From: Sphingobacteriales bacterium TSM_CSS
GTDB taxonomy: Bacteria > Bacteroidota > Bacteroidia > Chitinophagales > UBA2359
Assembly: GCA_002212985.1 (NCBI GenBank)
Contig: NBMY01000074.1
Location: forward strand, 1-64,000
DNA length: 64,000 bases
Direction of reading: 5' to 3'
Shown here: piece by piece, positions 1 to 7,036 of the stretch
How the letters are laid out: each line of letters begins with the position of its first letter
Position numbering within the stretch: the first letter of the stretch is position 1
The notes under the pieces: generated by a model
Told to the model about the DNA's origin: nothing
What the model saw: only the letters and a program-made list of their open reading frames with translations
The model's database searches: none
Program-made: the position numbers and the translations under genes

Positions 1-54
1 CGTACGGTGGTGTGAGAGGGCTGGGGCGGTTAATGCCGCCCCACTCTACTCGAT
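1..54 (+). mobile_element. 3' end of a group II intron (end of domain V plus domain VI)
   Basis: The first bases (CGTACGGTG) fit the 3' strand of a group II intron domain V. They are followed by a fold typical of domain VI. Bases 23-30 pair with 35-42 around a TAAT loop, and 14-16 pair with 49-51. Bases 17-20 pair with 44-47, including one G-T wobble. This leaves A48 as the single bulged base, six bases before the end CGAT at 54. A bulged branch-point adenosine 7-8 nt from the 3' splice site is the hallmark of this domain. The rest of the intron, including any reverse transcriptase gene, lies left of the window. The 3' exon begins near 55, 20 bases from the CobW-family gene's stop codon. The intron is oriented opposite to that gene. 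Confidence 0.8.
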
Positions 55-73
55 TATCTGCTGCCCTTTTTTG

Positions 74-1288
74 TCAAATATTTTTCGGGAAAGGGTCAGT
101 AAAACTTTTTTTGCTTTCAAACTGTTTTTGTTCGCTGTCTTGTAACAAACATTTTTCAAGGTCTGCTATCATTTTTTCTTTGTCAATGTCCTGCCCAATG
201 AAAACTATTTCATTCATTCTGTCACCCCATTGTTTATGCCATTTATTTTCTATGTATTCACGATTGTCAACAAATGACTGATATTTGATTCTTTCAGAAA
301 ATGGCATACTTACCCACCATACACCTGCTTTTTCGAGCCTTGATGAGCCGCCTGCTTGACTGAAATTGATTGCCTCATTTGGTCTTGATGCCAACCAAAA
401 CAAACCTTTGGCTCTAATAACTCCGTTTGGATACTCTTCGTTCAAATATTTCCAAAATCTTTTGGGGTGAAATGGTTTTTGGTTTCTAAAAACGAATGAT
501 GAAATGCCATATTCTTCTGTTTCGGGCGTGTGAACTCCGCCTTCTAATTCCTTCTGCCAACCTGCCGAATTTTGTGCTTCTTCAAAGTCAAACAGTTTTG
601 TATTCAGAATTTCTTTGGGGTCAACTTTGCTAAAATCGGATGTCAGTATTTTTGCACTTGGATTTAGTTTTTGGATGGATGCTTTTAAAAGTCCAACCGT
701 TTTTGCGTCAACTAAATCCGTTTTGTTTAAGATAATAACATTGGCAAATTCTATTTGGTCTGTCAGCAAATTTACAATGGTTCTGTAATCGCCTTCCATA
801 TCGGTTAGTTTTCGGTCAACCAATAACTCATTTGTGCCAAAATCGTTAAAAAAATTGAAGCAGTCCACAACAGTAACCATTGTGTCAATATAGCTGAATT
901 TTGAAAGGTCAATGCCTTTTTCTTCGTCCACAAAACTAAAAGTTTGGGCAATTGGAACTGGCTCGCTTATACCTGTGCTTTCTATGAGTAAGTAATCAAA
1001 CTTGCCTTCGTTGGCTAATTTTTCTACTTCTATCATCAAATCTTCACGAAGTGTGCAACATATACAACCGTTGCTCATTTCTACTAATTTTTCTTCGGTT
1101 CGTGAAAGCACATTTTGTTCGTTTACCAAGCGTGCATCTACATTTACTTCGCTCATATCATTCACAATTACGGCTACTTTTAAGCCGTCTTTGTTATGTA
1201 ATACGTGGTTAAGCAAGGTTGTTTTTCCTGCTCCAAGAAAACCGCTTAAAACGGTTACGGGTAATTTTTTAGTTGCTGTTGATGTCAT
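74..1288 (-). CDS. COG0523/CobW-family GTPase, putative zinc metallochaperone
   Basis: 404 aa, cytoplasmic. It is a G3E-family P-loop GTPase: Walker A (GFLGAGKTT) at residues 16-24, the family metal-binding motif CICC at 75-78, a switch motif ESTG at about 103, and the guanine-specificity motif NKTD at 188-191. A CobW C-terminal domain occupies roughly 260-370. COG0523 proteins bind zinc or cobalt and pass metal to client enzymes when zinc is scarce (ZigA/YeiR/ZNG1 type). It is the last gene of the four-gene operon and its start overlaps the end of the preceding gene by 20 bases, which implies translational coupling. The position behind a promoter with Fur-family-like palindromes supports a zinc role over cobalamin biosynthesis, since no cob genes are nearby. 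The exact client is unknown. Confidence 0.9.
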
Positions 1289-1949
1289 TGAAACTATTTA
1301 TTTTTATGATTTGAATTTTATTGGAACGAGAGATAAGTCCTGGGTTTATTCCTGGTTTTCCTTCGGGAATTTCTGTGTTGAGTTCTTTGTAATACTTTAT
1401 CCAAGCAGGAAAAAAGTTTTGTGTTTTCGGGTCTTTAAATGTCATTGGCTCTAATTCAAAAAAGTCATTTTGATTGTTAACTTTTTTAAATGTTTCATAA
1501 ATCAACTCACTGCAATACCACTTGCCATTGCCTAATAAAAATTCATCGTCATAAGGATGTCCTATAAGTTGCTTTACGTTTGATATTGCATTGGGGATTA
1601 AATTTTCAAACTGATGTTTAACTCTGCCAACGGTGATATTTTGAATTACGGTTGTGTCGCCACTTCTTGCGAAGAATTTCTTTAAAGAATTTACCTGCAC
1701 TTTGTCGCCAATAGCTTCTATAACTCTTAATGTGTCGTTTACATTTACCACCATTGCACAATGAGAAAAATCTTTACCATTAACACCTTCGGTTACTGCT
1801 TCAATAGCATTGCACAAGTCGCCACAGTTTAAGTTTTGAAACAGTATATCTCCTTCCTGTAATTGTTCGGAATGGTGAGAATGATTGCAACTTGGTGCTA
1901 ATGTGCAGCAATAACAAAACAATATTATGTTGAATAATCTAATTTTCAT
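1269..1949 (-). CDS. YiiX/YebB-like permuted papain-fold lipoprotein
   Basis: 226 aa. An N-terminal hydrophobic stretch ends in a lipobox-like APSC, followed directly by the histidine-rich run NHSHH, so an exported, membrane-anchored protein is likely. The domain matches the permuted NlpC/P60 (YiiX) family: an early GDILF motif, the catalytic-type His in DFSHCAMV, and the Cys in KWYCSELIY. The family's cysteine peptidases or amidases usually act on cell-wall or lipid substrates. It overlaps both operon neighbours (11 bases with the MerC gene, 20 with the CobW gene). Its presence in a metal operon is unusual; the His-rich tail after the lipidated Cys could bind metal, which is inference. Confidence 0.8.
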
Positions 1950-2313
1950 TTTCGTTTAGTTTTGAGCATTCTCTGCAATGTTTGATGTTTAGAATGTGTC
2001 CAATAATAATTAGGATTGCAAATGAATATCCTGAATAATGAAACCATTCATACTCTTCTTGAAATAATGTAGAAAATAAAAAGCCCCAAAACGAAATCCA
2101 AAGTAGAAGTGATATTTTCTTGCTGGTTATATTTTCGGTTGCTTTGAAAATTGATACAAAAGAGATAATTAGGAATAGATATTTGAAAAATGGATTTGTT
2201 ATAAAACCCGCTCCAAATGCTATCAATAAAGGCGTAGCTACGCAATGCACCAAACATATTGATGAACTTAAAATACCTATTAGGTCTGCTTTATTGATTT
2301 TAGTATTGTTCAT
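1939..2313 (-). CDS. MerC-domain membrane protein
   Basis: 124 aa, inner membrane, about four predicted transmembrane segments. It matches the MerC family: the first helix carries the metal-binding cysteine pair in ICLVHC (C20 and C24), and a further pair KHCREC lies near the C-terminus. Classical MerC carries Hg(II) into the cell. In Bacteroidota, MerC-domain proteins often sit beside Fur-family regulators and CobW proteins rather than mer genes. No merA, merR or merT is present here, so a role in zinc transport under limitation is more plausible than mercury resistance. It overlaps the 69-aa gene by 14 bases and the YiiX-like gene by 11. Confidence 0.85.
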   Translation of the reverse strand: MNNTKINKADLIGILSSSICLVHCVATPLLIAFGAGFITNPFFKYLFLIISFVSIFKATENITSKKISLLLWISFWGFLFSTLFQEEYEWFHYSGYSFAILIIIGHILNIKHCRECSKLNENEN

Positions 2314-2509
2314 TATTTTTGATTTTTTCTAGCCAATTAATAATATTTGAAAGATGTTGTTCGCCATAAAGAGAGATGAATTTTTGTGTTTCTTTATTTT
2401 GATTGTCTTTATAAACGGTCAAGCGTTGGTGTGCAAAATCCGTTGTTAGATTTATTTTGCAGTCGTTAACAATGCAGTTTGTCCAGTCGTTGAATGTTTG
2501 TGGTATCAT
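2300..2509 (-). CDS. Small protein of unknown function, first gene of the metal operon
   Basis: 69 aa, soluble and without a signal peptide. I do not recognise the family. Visible features are two cysteines near the N-terminus (NCIVNDC, C12 and C17), three histidines, and a helical C-terminal half. The start is supported by the promoter: a -7 element lies 34-41 bases upstream on the minus strand, overlapping a palindromic operator. The end overlaps the MerC gene by 14 bases, so the four genes form one tightly packed transcript. It could be a small metal-binding or adaptor protein, but only operon membership supports this. Confidence 0.7.
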   Translation of the reverse strand: MIPQTFNDWTNCIVNDCKINLTTDFAHQRLTVYKDNQNKETQKFISLYGEQHLSNIINWLEKIKNNEQY

Positions 2510-2529
2510 TTTAAAATAAGTTTAGTTAA

Positions 2530-2544
2530 TGCAACAATGTTGCA
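2530..2544. promoter_or_regulatory. Palindromic operator, copy 1 (Fur/Zur-family-like)
   Basis: Perfect 7-1-7 palindrome TGCAACAATGTTGCA. It overlaps the minus-strand -7 element of the operon by two bases, so a bound repressor would block it. It is identical to a second copy centred 38 bases away. Assignment to a Fur-family (Zur-like) repressor rests on the adjacent broken repressor gene and the operon content. Confidence 0.65.
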
Positions 2545-2550
2545 AAAGTA
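2543..2550 (-). promoter_or_regulatory. -7 element of the metal operon promoter
   Basis: Minus strand reads TACTTTTG, a full match to the Bacteroidota -7 consensus TAnnTTTG. A TTG (-33 core) lies at 2572-2570 on the same strand with a 19-base spacer, inside the second operator copy. Transcription would start near 2535 and run into the 69-aa gene. Confidence 0.65.
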
Positions 2551-2555
2551 ATCAT

Positions 2556-2563
2556 TATCTTTG
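2556..2563 (+). promoter_or_regulatory. -7 element for the broken repressor gene
   Basis: TATCTTTG matches TAnnTTTG. It lies five bases before operator copy 2 and 26 bases before the ATG at 2589. No convincing -33 TTG at 19-21 bases was found. This is the divergent partner of the operon promoter. Confidence 0.5.
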
Positions 2564-2567
2564 TGAT

Positions 2568-2582
2568 TGCAACAATGTTGCA
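2568..2582. promoter_or_regulatory. Palindromic operator, copy 2 (Fur/Zur-family-like)
   Basis: Second exact copy of TGCAACAATGTTGCA. It covers the expected transcription start of the plus-strand regulator gene and the -33 TTG of the minus-strand operon. One repressor could therefore control both directions. Confidence 0.65.
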
Positions 2583-2588
2583 TTAAAA

Positions 2589-2770
2589 ATGTCAAAAAAA
2601 ATGAAGTCGTCAAGAAACATAACTGCAAAAACCGAAATTCAAGAATTGATTGTTTCTTCGTCTGTGGCTTTGTCACACAGCGAGTTGAGCCGTCTTATAA
2701 GTTGCCTAAAAATTATAAGGTCAGCGAAATGAATTTTACTTTGTCAGGACTTTGTCCGCAATGTTCGTAG
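2589..2770 (+). pseudogene. Fur/Zur-family repressor, internally deleted and frameshifted
   Basis: From ATG 2589 the frame reads the start of a Bacteroidota Fur-family repressor: a basic N-terminus, RNITAKTEIQELI, then ALSHSELSRLI, the first helices of the winged-helix domain, up to about 2695. The same strand then continues, one frame over, with the end of the same kind of protein: LPKNYKVSEMNFTLSGLCPQCS and a stop at 2768-2770. That segment resembles the last beta strands and the CxxC structural zinc motif. The central 65-70 residues (rest of the winged helix, the HHxHxH-type sensory site and first CxxC) are absent. The original frame stops at 2732 after 47 codons. A functional repressor is not expected. 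It is divergent from the metal operon across the two operators, the usual place for an autoregulated zur. Confidence 0.75.
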
Positions 2771-3224
2771 TCGTTTCGGTAGGGTTGCAGATAACATCAT
2801 CTTTGTGTACCAAATGCACTTCCATTGGGTAGCTTTGCCCGCCTACATGGTGTTCGCTTGCTGTATGGAAATGAAATTGTAACAATTTAAAAGTAGCTCC
2901 GTTAAGATTGATAGAACTGCCCGAATCATAGGTAAATTGAATAGTATGCCCATTGTTTAAAATGTGTGTGGCAGAACTGGTGTAAGTGTGGTTAATAGCC
3001 GCTAAGGTGTTGTCTGGAACAGCGCCGGTAATGTCAATAGGAGATTGCGAACTACCATCGCAGGTAGCATAGCCTTCGCATAATTCTGCCCAATGGCTGG
3101 GTCCGTGCTCACCATCGTACTCAAAATGAATGCCCTCACAAGATACCGGAATGTTCTCATCATCCTTACAACCGGCAGCAAAAAATAGAGAAAACAAAAA
3201 CAGGGTGAAAGTAAAACGTTTCAT
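2736..3224 (-). pseudogene. Alpha-carbonic anhydrase lipoprotein, C-terminally truncated
   Basis: 162 aa against a usual 220-250. The N-terminus is a lipoprotein signal with lipobox FAAGC (C19). The alpha-CA fold is recognisable through SQSPIDI, HTIQF and the zinc ligands H118, H120 (FHFH) and H137 (EVHLVH). Family similarity stops after HKD at about residue 142 (near base 2798). The last ~20 residues are read partly from the antisense of the Fur-remnant gene, so the C-terminal third, including the active-site Thr region, is missing. The enzyme would hydrate CO2 in the periplasm, but this copy is probably inactive. A genuinely short variant is possible but unlikely. Confidence 0.75.
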
Positions 3225-3427
3225 TTAATTAAAATTTAGGAGGTTAAAAAAAGAAAAAGCAATTATTTATTTAATGTGTGTGTTAGTATTACATAAGTCT
3301 TTTATAATTAGTGTGAAGGTAATCAAAATATTGAATGTCCAAATTTATTTAGGCTTTTTTCAAAAAAAAAATACGCGAAGCGTAATTACCTGACTTTAGT
3401 AATGCCTATTACCGAACTGAAACTTTG

Positions 3428-3435
3428 TATCTTTG
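3428..3435 (+). promoter_or_regulatory. -7 element upstream of the M20 peptidase
   Basis: TATCTTTG matches TAnnTTTG, 40 bases before ATG 3476. No clear -33 element. Confidence 0.5.
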
Positions 3436-3475
3436 CAGTTGCTACTATTGCTGGTTTTTTAGCAAAATTTAGGGA

Positions 3476-4669
3476 ATGTCATTAATAAAAAAAATAAAAA
3501 CATTGGCGCTAAGTGCCCACCCCGAGGTGGTTGCTATAAGAAGACATTTACACGCCCACCCCGAACTGTCTTTTGAAGAATACCAAACCTCGGCATTTGT
3601 ACAGGAAAAACTTACCCAGTACGGATTGCCTTTTACCAACGGCATAGCCAATACCGGCGTGGTGGCATATGTGGAAGGGAAAAAACCGGGTAAAAAAACC
3701 ATAGCCCTGCGCGCCGATATGGATGCCTTGCCCATAACCGAAGCCAATGAGGTGCCTTATAAATCTACCGTTCCGGGGGTAATGCACGCCTGCGGGCACG
3801 ATGCCCATACCGCCAGTTTGCTGGGAGCTGCCAAAATACTCAGCCAACTGAAAAACGAATTTGAAGGAACGGTGAAACTCATTTTCCAGCCCGCCGAAGA
3901 ACGGTCGCCGGGCGGCGCTTCTATTATGATTAAAGAAGGGGTGCTGGAAACACCCAAACCGGCAGGCATCATAGGGCAACATGTATATTCCATGTTGCCC
4001 GCCGGGGCAGTAGGTTTCAGAAGCGGTATGATGATGGCCTCGTGCGATGAGATAGATTTGTATATTTATGGCAAGGGCGGGCATGGCGCCGTGCCCCAAC
4101 TAACCATTGACCCTATTGTGCTGGCTGCACATATTGTTACTGCACTGCAACAGGTGGTAAGCCGGCTAAACGACCCCACCGTGCCCTGTGTGCTTACACT
4201 GGGAAAAATTGAATCGGTTGGCGGCGCCTATAACATTATTCCAGAAGAGGTGAGAATACAGGGAACCCTGCGCACCATGAACGAGCAATGGCGCAAAGAA
4301 GCCAAACAAAAAATTGAGCAAATTGCCACCGGCGTAGCAACTGCCATGGGCGGTGTCTGCCGTGTACAGATAACAGACGGTTATCCGTTTTTAATTAACG
4401 ATGAGGAATTAACCGCCCGCTGCAAACAGGCAGCCATAGAACTGTTGGGAAAAGAAAACGTACACGACCTGCCCATGCGCATGACCGCCGAAGATTTTGC
4501 CTACTATACCCAACAAATAAAAGGGTGTTTCTACCGACTTGGAACCGGCAACGCCGCACGCGGTATTACCGCCAATGTGCATACCCCCATTTTTGACATT
4601 GACGAAGAGGCACTAATTACCGGCATGGGGTTAATGGCGTGGCTTGCCCTTAACGAATTGCAAGACTGA
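3476..4669 (+). CDS. M20 family metallopeptidase / amidohydrolase
   Basis: 397 aa, no signal peptide, cytoplasmic. Family landmarks: RADMDALPI at 79-87, HACGHDAH at 104-111 (metal ligands C106 and H108), the catalytic glutamate pair EE at 141-142, a GQHV histidine near 169, and a C-terminal NVHTPIFDID histidine near 373. This pattern (Cys in place of a metal His) belongs to the M20D group: aminoacylases, hippurate hydrolases, indole-acetyl-amino-acid hydrolases, N-acetyl-diaminopimelate deacetylase. Substrate cannot be assigned; nearby genes do not form a pathway. Own promoter, monocistronic, convergent with the patatin gene. Confidence 0.9.
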   Translation: MSLIKKIKTLALSAHPEVVAIRRHLHAHPELSFEEYQTSAFVQEKLTQYGLPFTNGIANTGVVAYVEGKKPGKKTIALRADMDALPITEANEVPYKSTVPGVMHACGHDAHTASLLGAAKILSQLKNEFEGTVKLIFQPAEERSPGGASIMIKEGVLETPKPAGIIGQHVYSMLPAGAVGFRSGMMMASCDEIDLYIYGKGGHGAVPQLTIDPIVLAAHIVTALQQVVSRLNDPTVPCVLTLGKIESVGGAYNIIPEEVRIQGTLRTMNEQWRKEAKQKIEQIATGVATAMGGVCRVQITDGYPFLINDEELTARCKQAAIELLGKENVHDLPMRMTAEDFAYYTQQIKGCFYRLGTGNAARGITANVHTPIFDIDEEALITGMGLMAWLALNELQD

Positions 4670-4756
4670 CAAAATAAGACTTACCCAGAAACCGCGGGCA
4701 TTGTACAAGCAGTAAAAATAACGATTACACCTATTTATTTGATGGCGGTAGCAGTT

Positions 4757-7036
4757 CTACTTGCCCAAAATTTTGAGTAAATTATGCAAATTTTTTTGGT
4801 TTACTTCGTTTGAAAAAGCAGTTCGTATATCTTGTTTTTCTTTTGTAGTGAGGTGCAGGCTCAGGGAGGCCTTTACATTTTTAACAGCGGGAACATATTC
4901 AAAATTAATTACCTCTAATTTGCCCTGCAATTCATCATCGGCAATTGTGGCCATATAATCTGCGTAGCAATCCTGCATTTCAAAGGTTATGAAAACGCTA
5001 ATGGGTTTAACCACTTTTTCTATAAGGCTTTCGGTAACCCGTTTAACATCGCGGTCTTTTTCATCGGACCGAATAAATACCACTATTACCTTGCCCACGT
5101 TTTGATTAATCCAGTCTTTAAAAATGTGCAGAAACCGGTAAGTGGTTTCAAAACCGGTATTATCTCTGAACCCGGCATCCATTACCTCAGCCGGTGGCGA
5201 AGTGGGCAGGTAGGTAGAGGGTAAAATGTACGGAAAAGTAGCGCTCATGCGCACAGCCGAGCTAAGCAATACGTTTTGGGCGTTATATGGCTCAAAAAAG
5301 CGCATCAGTTCAACGCCGTCTGTTTCAAAAGAGGAATGGGTAAAGCCGTATTGGTTGTAAGGCCGTGTAAGGTAAGATATTGGTTGCGAAGAAATATACA
5401 ATTTCCGGTGGTCTGTAACAATGGTGGGGGTAATAAGCAACATGGGAATATTGGCATTGCTTTCGGCCTGGTAGTAGTCGCTTACGCGGCGGCCATCTAA
5501 AGCTATGGCACCGCCGGTATTTTGGGTAAGTTGTTTTTCAAAAGCATAAGCCCGGTTTTTTCGGTAGGTGTAACCGGCAGTTTTAAAGGTTTGAAACGGG
5601 TAAAACAGGTCATTTACGGCAATAGAAAAAATAACGGCATTCAGGTAATCGCGCGTTAACTCATCGGCGTAGGAGGGGTTGTGCATAACAATACCGGTAT
5701 TGCCCGCCTGCTTTTGGTAGTACAGTTCGTGCAGATAGGCTGCTGCCATCATGCCGCCCGAAGAGCCGCACATGAGCATGGTTCGGTCAAACAGGGTGTT
5801 GTTCAGCAGGCTGTCAAGAGTTTGTGTAACGGTCATTCCCCAAAGAGCTGCCCTTGCTCCGCCACCGCTGTAGTTCAGAATTATCATATCGGGTTTAATG
5901 CCGGGTGGTGTAAGCGGGGCGTTCTTGGCTTTCCATCTATCTAAGGTAAACAGGGACTGTTCTATATCGCAGGTTATAAGTCCTGTATCGGCGCGGGCGC
6001 TTATGATGGCGGGGTTGTATGGGGCAGGCGGAAGTTGGTAATTTAACCCGTAAACTTTAGTGTCGTAATTAAGCCAATCATATCGGGTAAAAAAGTTAAT
6101 GATGATGAAAAAAATTAACAACCCTAAAGCTCTCCAACCGCGCAGCCAAAAGTTAAATGCACCGGTTAACCCCATTAATACCGATAAAATGAGCAATACA
6201 CTGGCGGCAGCCGGAAGTTGAAAAGCCGGTTTGTCCATTAAAAAACCCAACAGTACCAATATGGCAAGTGCCACACCCAAAATAATAAGCGCATTGGCGT
6301 GGTTTTGCTGAAACACGGCTTCTAAGGTTTGATGTGCATAGTGTTTTGTGCTTCTTACGCGGCGAATATTTAACCGGTGGTTTAAAAAATAGGTAACCTG
6401 CCATTCTTTATCGCTAAACCCCGAGGCGCCCGCTGTGCCAATTCCTTGTCTGCGCAAACGGCGGCGGCGGCGTGTTATGACTACAGGCAGGTTTACCTTT
6501 TCGAGGCGTTTAAGGGTTTCGAGCAGGGTGTTTAGGTTGGTGTTGGTAAGCCTGAAATAAAGGGCAAATAGCAATACCATAAGTGTACTGCCAGCTAAAA
6601 AAGCGCCGTGATATGTTATTACAGACAAAAGCGGGGTAAACTCAAACGACTCCTGAAACCGTGTTAAGGAAAGGAGGTATGTAATTATAAAAGCTAAGGG
6701 TATAAGGCTGTTGTTAATGCAAAAGTGAAAAAAGGGGCTGTGCAGCGTACCTAAAAACGGGAAACGGTAGCTGTGCATCATATACGATACAATATTCCAT
6801 GTAATAAAAAAGAACCCGAAAGCCAAGCCAACCCAAAAAAAGCCCCAAAAGTTAACCCGCCCCAAGTACTCGGGGTCTAAAAAAAGATAGGCGGCCCCCA
6901 TTTTTTTTAGCAGCAGGTTGGTAACAAAGCCAAACAAAAGCACCCAGAAAAAAAGCAGCAACAAGTTTTTCTTTAAGTGCATGACCACCAACTGGATGGG
7001 AAATGAATGCCAAATGCCGTTTAGTAGTTGCTGCAT
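4757..7036 (-). CDS. Membrane-anchored patatin-like phospholipase
   Basis: 759 aa. The first ~325 residues hold about eight hydrophobic segments with an arginine-rich stretch (189-196) between them. A patatin-like domain follows: oxyanion-hole motif GGGxR at 391-395, nucleophile elbow GSSGG at 424-428 (Ser426), and the Asp of the dyad in DAGFRDNTG near 615. Patatin-like enzymes hydrolyse acyl esters of phospholipids. A polytopic N-terminal domain on a patatin is uncommon and points to activity at the inner membrane. The only gene of its unit visible here; upstream lies tRNA-Thr with its own terminator. Confidence 0.85.
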   Translation of the reverse strand: MQQLLNGIWHSFPIQLVVMHLKKNLLLLFFWVLLFGFVTNLLLKKMGAAYLFLDPEYLGRVNFWGFFWVGLAFGFFFITWNIVSYMMHSYRFPFLGTLHSPFFHFCINNSLIPLAFIITYLLSLTRFQESFEFTPLLSVITYHGAFLAGSTLMVLLFALYFRLTNTNLNTLLETLKRLEKVNLPVVITRRRRRLRRQGIGTAGASGFSDKEWQVTYFLNHRLNIRRVRSTKHYAHQTLEAVFQQNHANALIILGVALAILVLLGFLMDKPAFQLPAAASVLLILSVLMGLTGAFNFWLRGWRALGLLIFFIIINFFTRYDWLNYDTKVYGLNYQLPPAPYNPAIISARADTGLITCDIEQSLFTLDRWKAKNAPLTPPGIKPDMIILNYSGGGARAALWGMTVTQTLDSLLNNTLFDRTMLMCGSSGGMMAAAYLHELYYQKQAGNTGIVMHNPSYADELTRDYLNAVIFSIAVNDLFYPFQTFKTAGYTYRKNRAYAFEKQLTQNTGGAIALDGRRVSDYYQAESNANIPMLLITPTIVTDHRKLYISSQPISYLTRPYNQYGFTHSSFETDGVELMRFFEPYNAQNVLLSSAVRMSATFPYILPSTYLPTSPPAEVMDAGFRDNTGFETTYRFLHIFKDWINQNVGKVIVVFIRSDEKDRDVKRVTESLIEKVVKPISVFITFEMQDCYADYMATIADDELQGKLEVINFEYVPAVKNVKASLSLHLTTKEKQDIRTAFSNEVNQKNLHNLLKILGK

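Follow-up and report, generated by a model that had tools for sequence, protein, structure and literature searches.

A gutted Fur/Zur-family repressor gene beside an intact zinc-scarcity operon in a probable mobile cassette of a Sphingobacteriales bacterium

What becomes of a zinc-scarcity operon when the repressor gene next to it is destroyed? The question is raised by a Fur/Zur-family gene in a 64,000-nucleotide stretch of contig NBMY01000074.1 from Sphingobacteriales bacterium TSM_CSS (the window, on contig C8 of a 173-contig, 4.49-Mb, 87%-complete metagenome-type assembly). The original prediction held that the two ends of a Fur-family repressor are recognizable on the same strand, one frame apart, with the central 65 to 70 residues missing and an early stop at 2732. 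It also held that the operators and the operon are intact, so that the locus is a natural regulator-loss case in which the operon is either constitutively on or under a different Fur-family protein acting in trans.

The reference was an intact Fur/Zur protein of 125 residues from the Bacteroidota strain UKL13-3 (locus L038; MKSARNTTAKTEIQELIASSSVALSHSE...VEPSFKLPKNYKVSEMNFTLSGLCPQCS, then the stop). In blastn, the window matched L038 from 73 to 2683 at 91% and from 2684 to 2771 at 85%, and 208 bases of L038 were left unmatched between the two segments. The same single 208-bp gap, at 2683|2684, was seen against the L039 and L046 loci, which also carry the extra bases. The 5' remnant (2601 to 2683, plus strand; residues 1 to 28), which breaks exactly at 2683 when aligned with the three intact genes, translates as MKSSRNITAKTEIQELIVSSSVALSHSE; an upstream ATG at 2589 is a possible alternative start. 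The 3' remnant (2684 to 2770, plus strand; residues 98 to 125 and TAG) translates, one frame over, as VEPSYKLPKNYKVSEMNFTLSGLCPQCS followed by the stop. Since 208 nucleotides equal 69 codons plus 1 nucleotide, the deletion changes the frame, and the N-terminal frame stops at 2732. Fur similarity was found at both ends by tblastn (E = 3e-10 for the N-terminal and 8e-15 for the C-terminal piece); the pieces were too short for Pfam or NCBIfam to assign a family to either. The two gene ends, the missing center and the early stop were thus as predicted.

The intact homologue belongs to the Fur family (PF01475, 30.4 bits; cut-off, 23.1), and its best PDB match is the zinc uptake regulation protein Zur (4mtd). 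The locus further shares with Zur, the zinc uptake repressor of the Fur family, 7-1-7 operators and a divergent zinc-scarcity operon. The window gene differs in that residues 29 to 97 are gone, which makes a regulator function impossible. The lost stretch held the recognition helix (DRVTIYRVLERL in the intact cassette protein), leaving the window gene without the DRVTxYR helix of a functional Fur/Zur protein, and most of the metal ligands; HSCSAKHSHNHIHFSCQKC is missing from the His/Cys metal site, and the C-terminal CPQC that remains is out of frame. As expected of a pseudogene, both ends have homology to a Fur-family gene that relatives keep intact at this locus, and the loss of the gene itself is ordinary pseudogene formation.

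Four genes, each of full length and similar to its counterpart in UKL13-3, run divergently from the pseudogene on the minus strand. The first is a 69-aa small ORF (2300 to 2509; protein identical to the L038 copy), followed by a MerC-like membrane protein of 124 aa (1939 to 2313; PF03203, E = 2e-13; 97.6% identity to L038), a C92 permuted papain-like lipoprotein of 226 aa (YiiX-like; 1269 to 1949; PF05708, E = 2e-23) and a COG0523 zinc GTPase of 404 aa (74 to 1288; PF02492, E = 4e-56; 404 of 404 codons). The GTPase shares full-length CobW_N and CobW_C domains with the COG0523 zinc metallochaperone ZigA, which is its best NCBIfam model (NF038288, 390 of 390 positions). It differs in its operon partners, here the MerC-like protein and the C92 peptidase, and we call it ZigA-like since its score of 556.9 bits is below the curated cut-off of 600.

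Divergence from UKL13-3 between 74 and 2509 is mosaic: the small ORF and merC are nearly identical (dS 0 to 0.05), and zigA has a dN of 0.046 and a dS of 0.93. The low dS of the operon genes other than zigA (0 to 0.12), against 0.93 in zigA, suggests that the unit may be a mosaic with recent exchange.

Two predicted operators, each the 7-1-7 palindrome TGCAACAATGTTGCA, are located at 2530 to 2544 and 2568 to 2582. The exact sequence occurs four times in the 4.49-Mb assembly, and the other two copies (C104:19726-19777) are located upstream of lipoprotein and TonB-dependent receptor genes, with similar spacing in the two pairs (38 bp in the window and 37 bp in C104). With two exact operators and four full-length divergent genes, the locus does represent a regulator loss beside an intact operon.

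A PF01475 search for other Fur-family genes in the genome gave just two, on contigs C57 and C161. The recognition helix of the C57 Fur (SRATVYNTLELL) is unlike those of the cassette and C161 proteins, while that of the C161 Zur-like paralogue (DRVTLYRTLTTF) is nearly the same as the cassette helix. A one-mismatch operator, TGCAACAAAGTTGCA, lies at C161:39037-39051, between divergent Zur-like and MerC-like genes. The near-identical recognition helix and the shared or nearly shared operators favor control of the cassette operon in trans by the host C161 protein, which would bind the cassette operators with zinc as the signal.

On the other hand, the operon may have become constitutive after the repressor was lost, the host Zur failing to recognize the cassette operators. 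The cassette no longer has a working regulator, the paralogue in the host is a diverged member of the Fur family, and the mismatch in the C161 operator also speaks against control in trans. However, identical 15-bp operators at similar spacing stand before the host lipoprotein/TonB locus, a near match stands at the promoter of the paralogue itself, and the recognition helices of the two proteins are almost identical. We therefore consider a constitutive operon unlikely. An unconditional "always on" state is likewise unlikely, since the genome encodes a Zur-like paralogue whose recognition helix is nearly identical. Between the two outcomes that had been proposed, control in trans is thus favored and constitutive expression is the less likely.

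The deletion could also be an artefact of assembly or binning, either a collapse or a strain chimera, with the real fur intact. The assembly is of the metagenome type and in 173 contigs, which counts in favor of such an error, but the junction at 2683|2684 has neither repeat nor microhomology, the deleted stretch has no copy elsewhere in the assembly, and the remaining cassette is uninterrupted. Moreover, in a related zigA cassette (L041), fur is gutted with breakpoints unlike those of the window, there apparently between short direct repeats (AAGTCAGC); the L041 loss is independent of the window loss. We regard an artefact as very improbable, and the gutted regulator gene is real in the assembly.

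The regulator loss was recognized by the original prediction, which missed that the gene apparently lies in a horizontally moved cassette splitting an alpha-carbonic anhydrase gene, that the cassette has an attC-like end with a group II intron, and that other Bacteroidota carry the cassette in intact form. The ORF at 2736 to 3224 encodes an alpha-carbonic anhydrase that breaks off after Pfam position 118. Its N-terminal half proper (2795 to 3224, minus strand; profile positions 1 to 118) is cut at a GTT codon (G|TT), and the C-terminal half begins at base 176 of contig C83, where Pfam positions 119 to 251 match C83:149-499. The sole alpha-carbonic anhydrase of the genome is divided in this way between C8 and C83, with both halves at contig ends. 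When aligned with four intact relatives, the halves join as KDD-V-SGNLAV at one host GTT codon. These four more distant relatives served as the uninterrupted state because both same-genus genomes lack the gene.

The part of the putative integron-type cassette in the window (55 to 2794, minus strand) is read from 2794 down to 55 and then past the intron into C83, as indicated by the GTT junction and by an attC-like site just before the split point on C83; the adjacency of C8 and C83 across the intron is inferred. A covariance model made from 13 other sites, the C83 site being left out, gave the site (C83:48-179) 124 bits (E = 6e-26), and 13 of the 17 pairs in the model have compensatory double changes. 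The fold of the bottom strand of the C83 site is better than expected from 200 shuffled sequences (z = -3.75). R'' and R' boxes flank imperfect inverted repeats, and R'', once the intron is removed, pairs with the left end of the cassette over 9 bases (GTTATCTGC).

The intron 3' end (domains V and VI; 1 to 54, plus strand) is inserted in the R'' box of the cassette attC-like site. It was identified via homologues that match Rfam: homologues of window 1 to 54 stop precisely where the RF00029 match has its 3' end, some 30 bp past ltrA. Positions 1 to 52 of C83 read as the intron 5' end, based on the GTGTGTCCGG start, the presence of two copies (C83 and C114) and the TTGT|T context; no match to this end was found among plasmids. 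Rfam searches of window 1 to 3500 and of the contig ends gave no relevant match, as the intron ends are too short. The exon context is ...ACCTTGT|TATCTGC, which places the insertion at TTGT|T in R'' on the attC bottom strand, and TTGT/T in R'' of attC is the published target of group IIC-attC introns (PMC7923331). This insertion point, together with the homology between the 3' end and annotated group II introns, points to a group IIC-attC type for an intron known here from its two ends, about the first 52 and last 54 bases, with the body and maturase outside the assembly. A second intron copy appears to join contigs C84 and C114 likewise.

Alternatively, a transposon such as an IS91-like element could have carried the operon into the alpha-carbonic anhydrase gene; in UKL13-3, IS91-like transposase ORFs (motifs identified by eye) flank the zigA units. 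In the window genome, however, the junction falls precisely at a GTT, R'' pairs with R', the attC-like hairpin covaries and is oriented as expected for cassettes, and an intron of the group IIC-attC type occupies its canonical target. We give transposon carriage little credence next to integron-type recombination, and a simple transposon was rejected as the carrier because neither a transposase nor an IS end is found at either cassette boundary. Finally, that the 47-aa N-terminal product (2589 to 2732) is a functional micro-regulator is hardly credible: its reading frame is uninterrupted and includes the start region, but it has neither the recognition helix nor any metal ligand, its final codons are read out of frame, and no conserved 47-aa form was seen in other genomes.

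The locus shares with integron gene cassettes and CALIN arrays the AAC...GTT-boxed attC-like sites, covarying stems, a single orientation, the G|TT junction, R''/R' complementarity and the occurrence of attC-like arrays in its own genome (C148) and in relatives. It differs in being a multi-gene cassette with its own promoter and a divergent regulator, and the integrases associated with arrays in UKL13-3 and relatives are XerA-like, without the IntI-specific segment. In the 87%-complete window genome, no IntI integrase scored above the TIGR02249 cut-off (the best hit, on C58, resembles the housekeeping XerD). A search for integrases of the array-associated type was likewise negative, and an IntI with the IntI-specific additional domain near an array, the mark of a complete integron, was not found.

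UKL13-3 encodes three XerA-like integrases (L163, L164 and L165), each adjoining same-strand attC-like sites, and genome G039 encodes one (L172), which points away from its attC-like array. These integrases are below the TIGR02249 cut-off and above the NF040815 XerA cut-off, and they lack roughly 40 to 60 positions of the integron-integrase profile, the gap lying at about 179 to 237 in the UKL13-3 and G063 proteins. From the profile coordinates and known IntI sequences, we take the missing segment to be the IntI-specific domain. Since the array integrases miss the IntI-profile cut-off and this segment yet pass the XerA model, we use the term integron-like; the evidence for a unit that behaves as an integron cassette is stronger than the evidence for an IntI integron. 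The XerA-like tyrosine recombinases beside arrays (L163, L164, L165 and L172) are candidates for the integrase of the system.

The attC-like model found sites in 13 of 41 related genomes. Same-strand sites lie 3' of zigA in L039, L041, L042, L043, L044 and L058, and fur is intact in L038, L039, L040, L042, L043, L044, L046 and L058. At 169 to 6382, L041 has a four-site array in which a second COG0523 GTPase forms a cassette of its own beside the fur-gutted zigA cassette. The L042 contig, which is assigned to a MAG of Bifidobacterium breve, has a zigA cassette closely matching the Bacteroidota copies and is probably mis-binned. In the window genome itself, contig C148 (6907 to 10616; L169) has a three-site attC-like array with accessory genes between the sites and no integrase seen; the left end of one of its cassettes (GTTATGCG) can pair with R'' in the attC of that cassette (CGCATAAC). 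On a Riemerella plasmid (NZ_CP073240.1, 1992 to 15392; L113), about 10 attC-like sites of the same family, all scoring best on one strand, stand between the resistance genes aadS, ere(D), tet(X), lnu(I), blaOXA and estT; an integron-integrase search of that record gave no match.

Taken together, the locus is probably best explained as a Zur-like repressor pseudogene in a mobile zinc cassette whose operon is still zinc-controlled through the host C161 Zur. A cassette with the backward-facing Zur-like gene first and then the zinc-scarcity operon would have entered the alpha-carbonic anhydrase gene at GTT by integron-type recombination. A group IIC-attC intron would have inserted itself into the attC-like end of the cassette, the cassette repressor would have been destroyed by a single 208-bp deletion, and the host Zur-like protein would keep the operon under zinc control. 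The loss was most likely that of a redundant repressor dropped from the cassette, and it was probably tolerated because the host C161 Zur has a near-identical recognition helix and nearly the same operator at its own promoter.

Very few integrons were found in the Bacteroidota phylum by the IntegronFinder 2.0 survey: just In0 elements in the earlier survey, and then one complete integron, in Salinibacter (PMC9024848). A 2026 paper described attC-like stem-loops and homology-free integration in Riemerella, with the enzyme not named (PMC13148043). In that work, the 3' segment of aph(3')-IVb of Riemerella anatipestifer has a 140-bp stem-loop "analogous to attC" and integrates without flanking homology. 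Plasmid pRCAD0416RA-1 carries many attC-like sites of the family of the window cassette. The two cases differ in that the Riemerella segment carries a resistance gene with no recombinase named while the window cassette carries a zinc operon, and a common site family is putative. A literature search with subscription papers mostly outside it returned no report of a zinc-regulon cassette or of such a regulator loss.

The wider interest lies in the cassette, its insertion in the alpha-carbonic anhydrase gene and the integrase question rather than in the fur loss itself. The setting is a large Bacteroidota family of attC-like sites that also stand between resistance genes on a Riemerella plasmid, and the XerA-like integrases adjoining the UKL13-3 arrays are candidates for the enzyme of the Riemerella homology-free integration. 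It is possible, at somewhat less than even chances, that widespread integron-like cassettes in Bacteroidota, served by a XerA-like recombinase without the IntI domain, move whole self-regulated operons, the zinc regulon among them, whose repressor is repeatedly lost once the host Zur reads the operators. On this redundancy idea a redundant repressor would be free to decay, and the two independent fur losses, in the window and in L041, make the idea countable. A mobile operon with its own zinc repressor, in a host whose Zur would read these operators too, is a testable model for the rewiring of transferred regulons.
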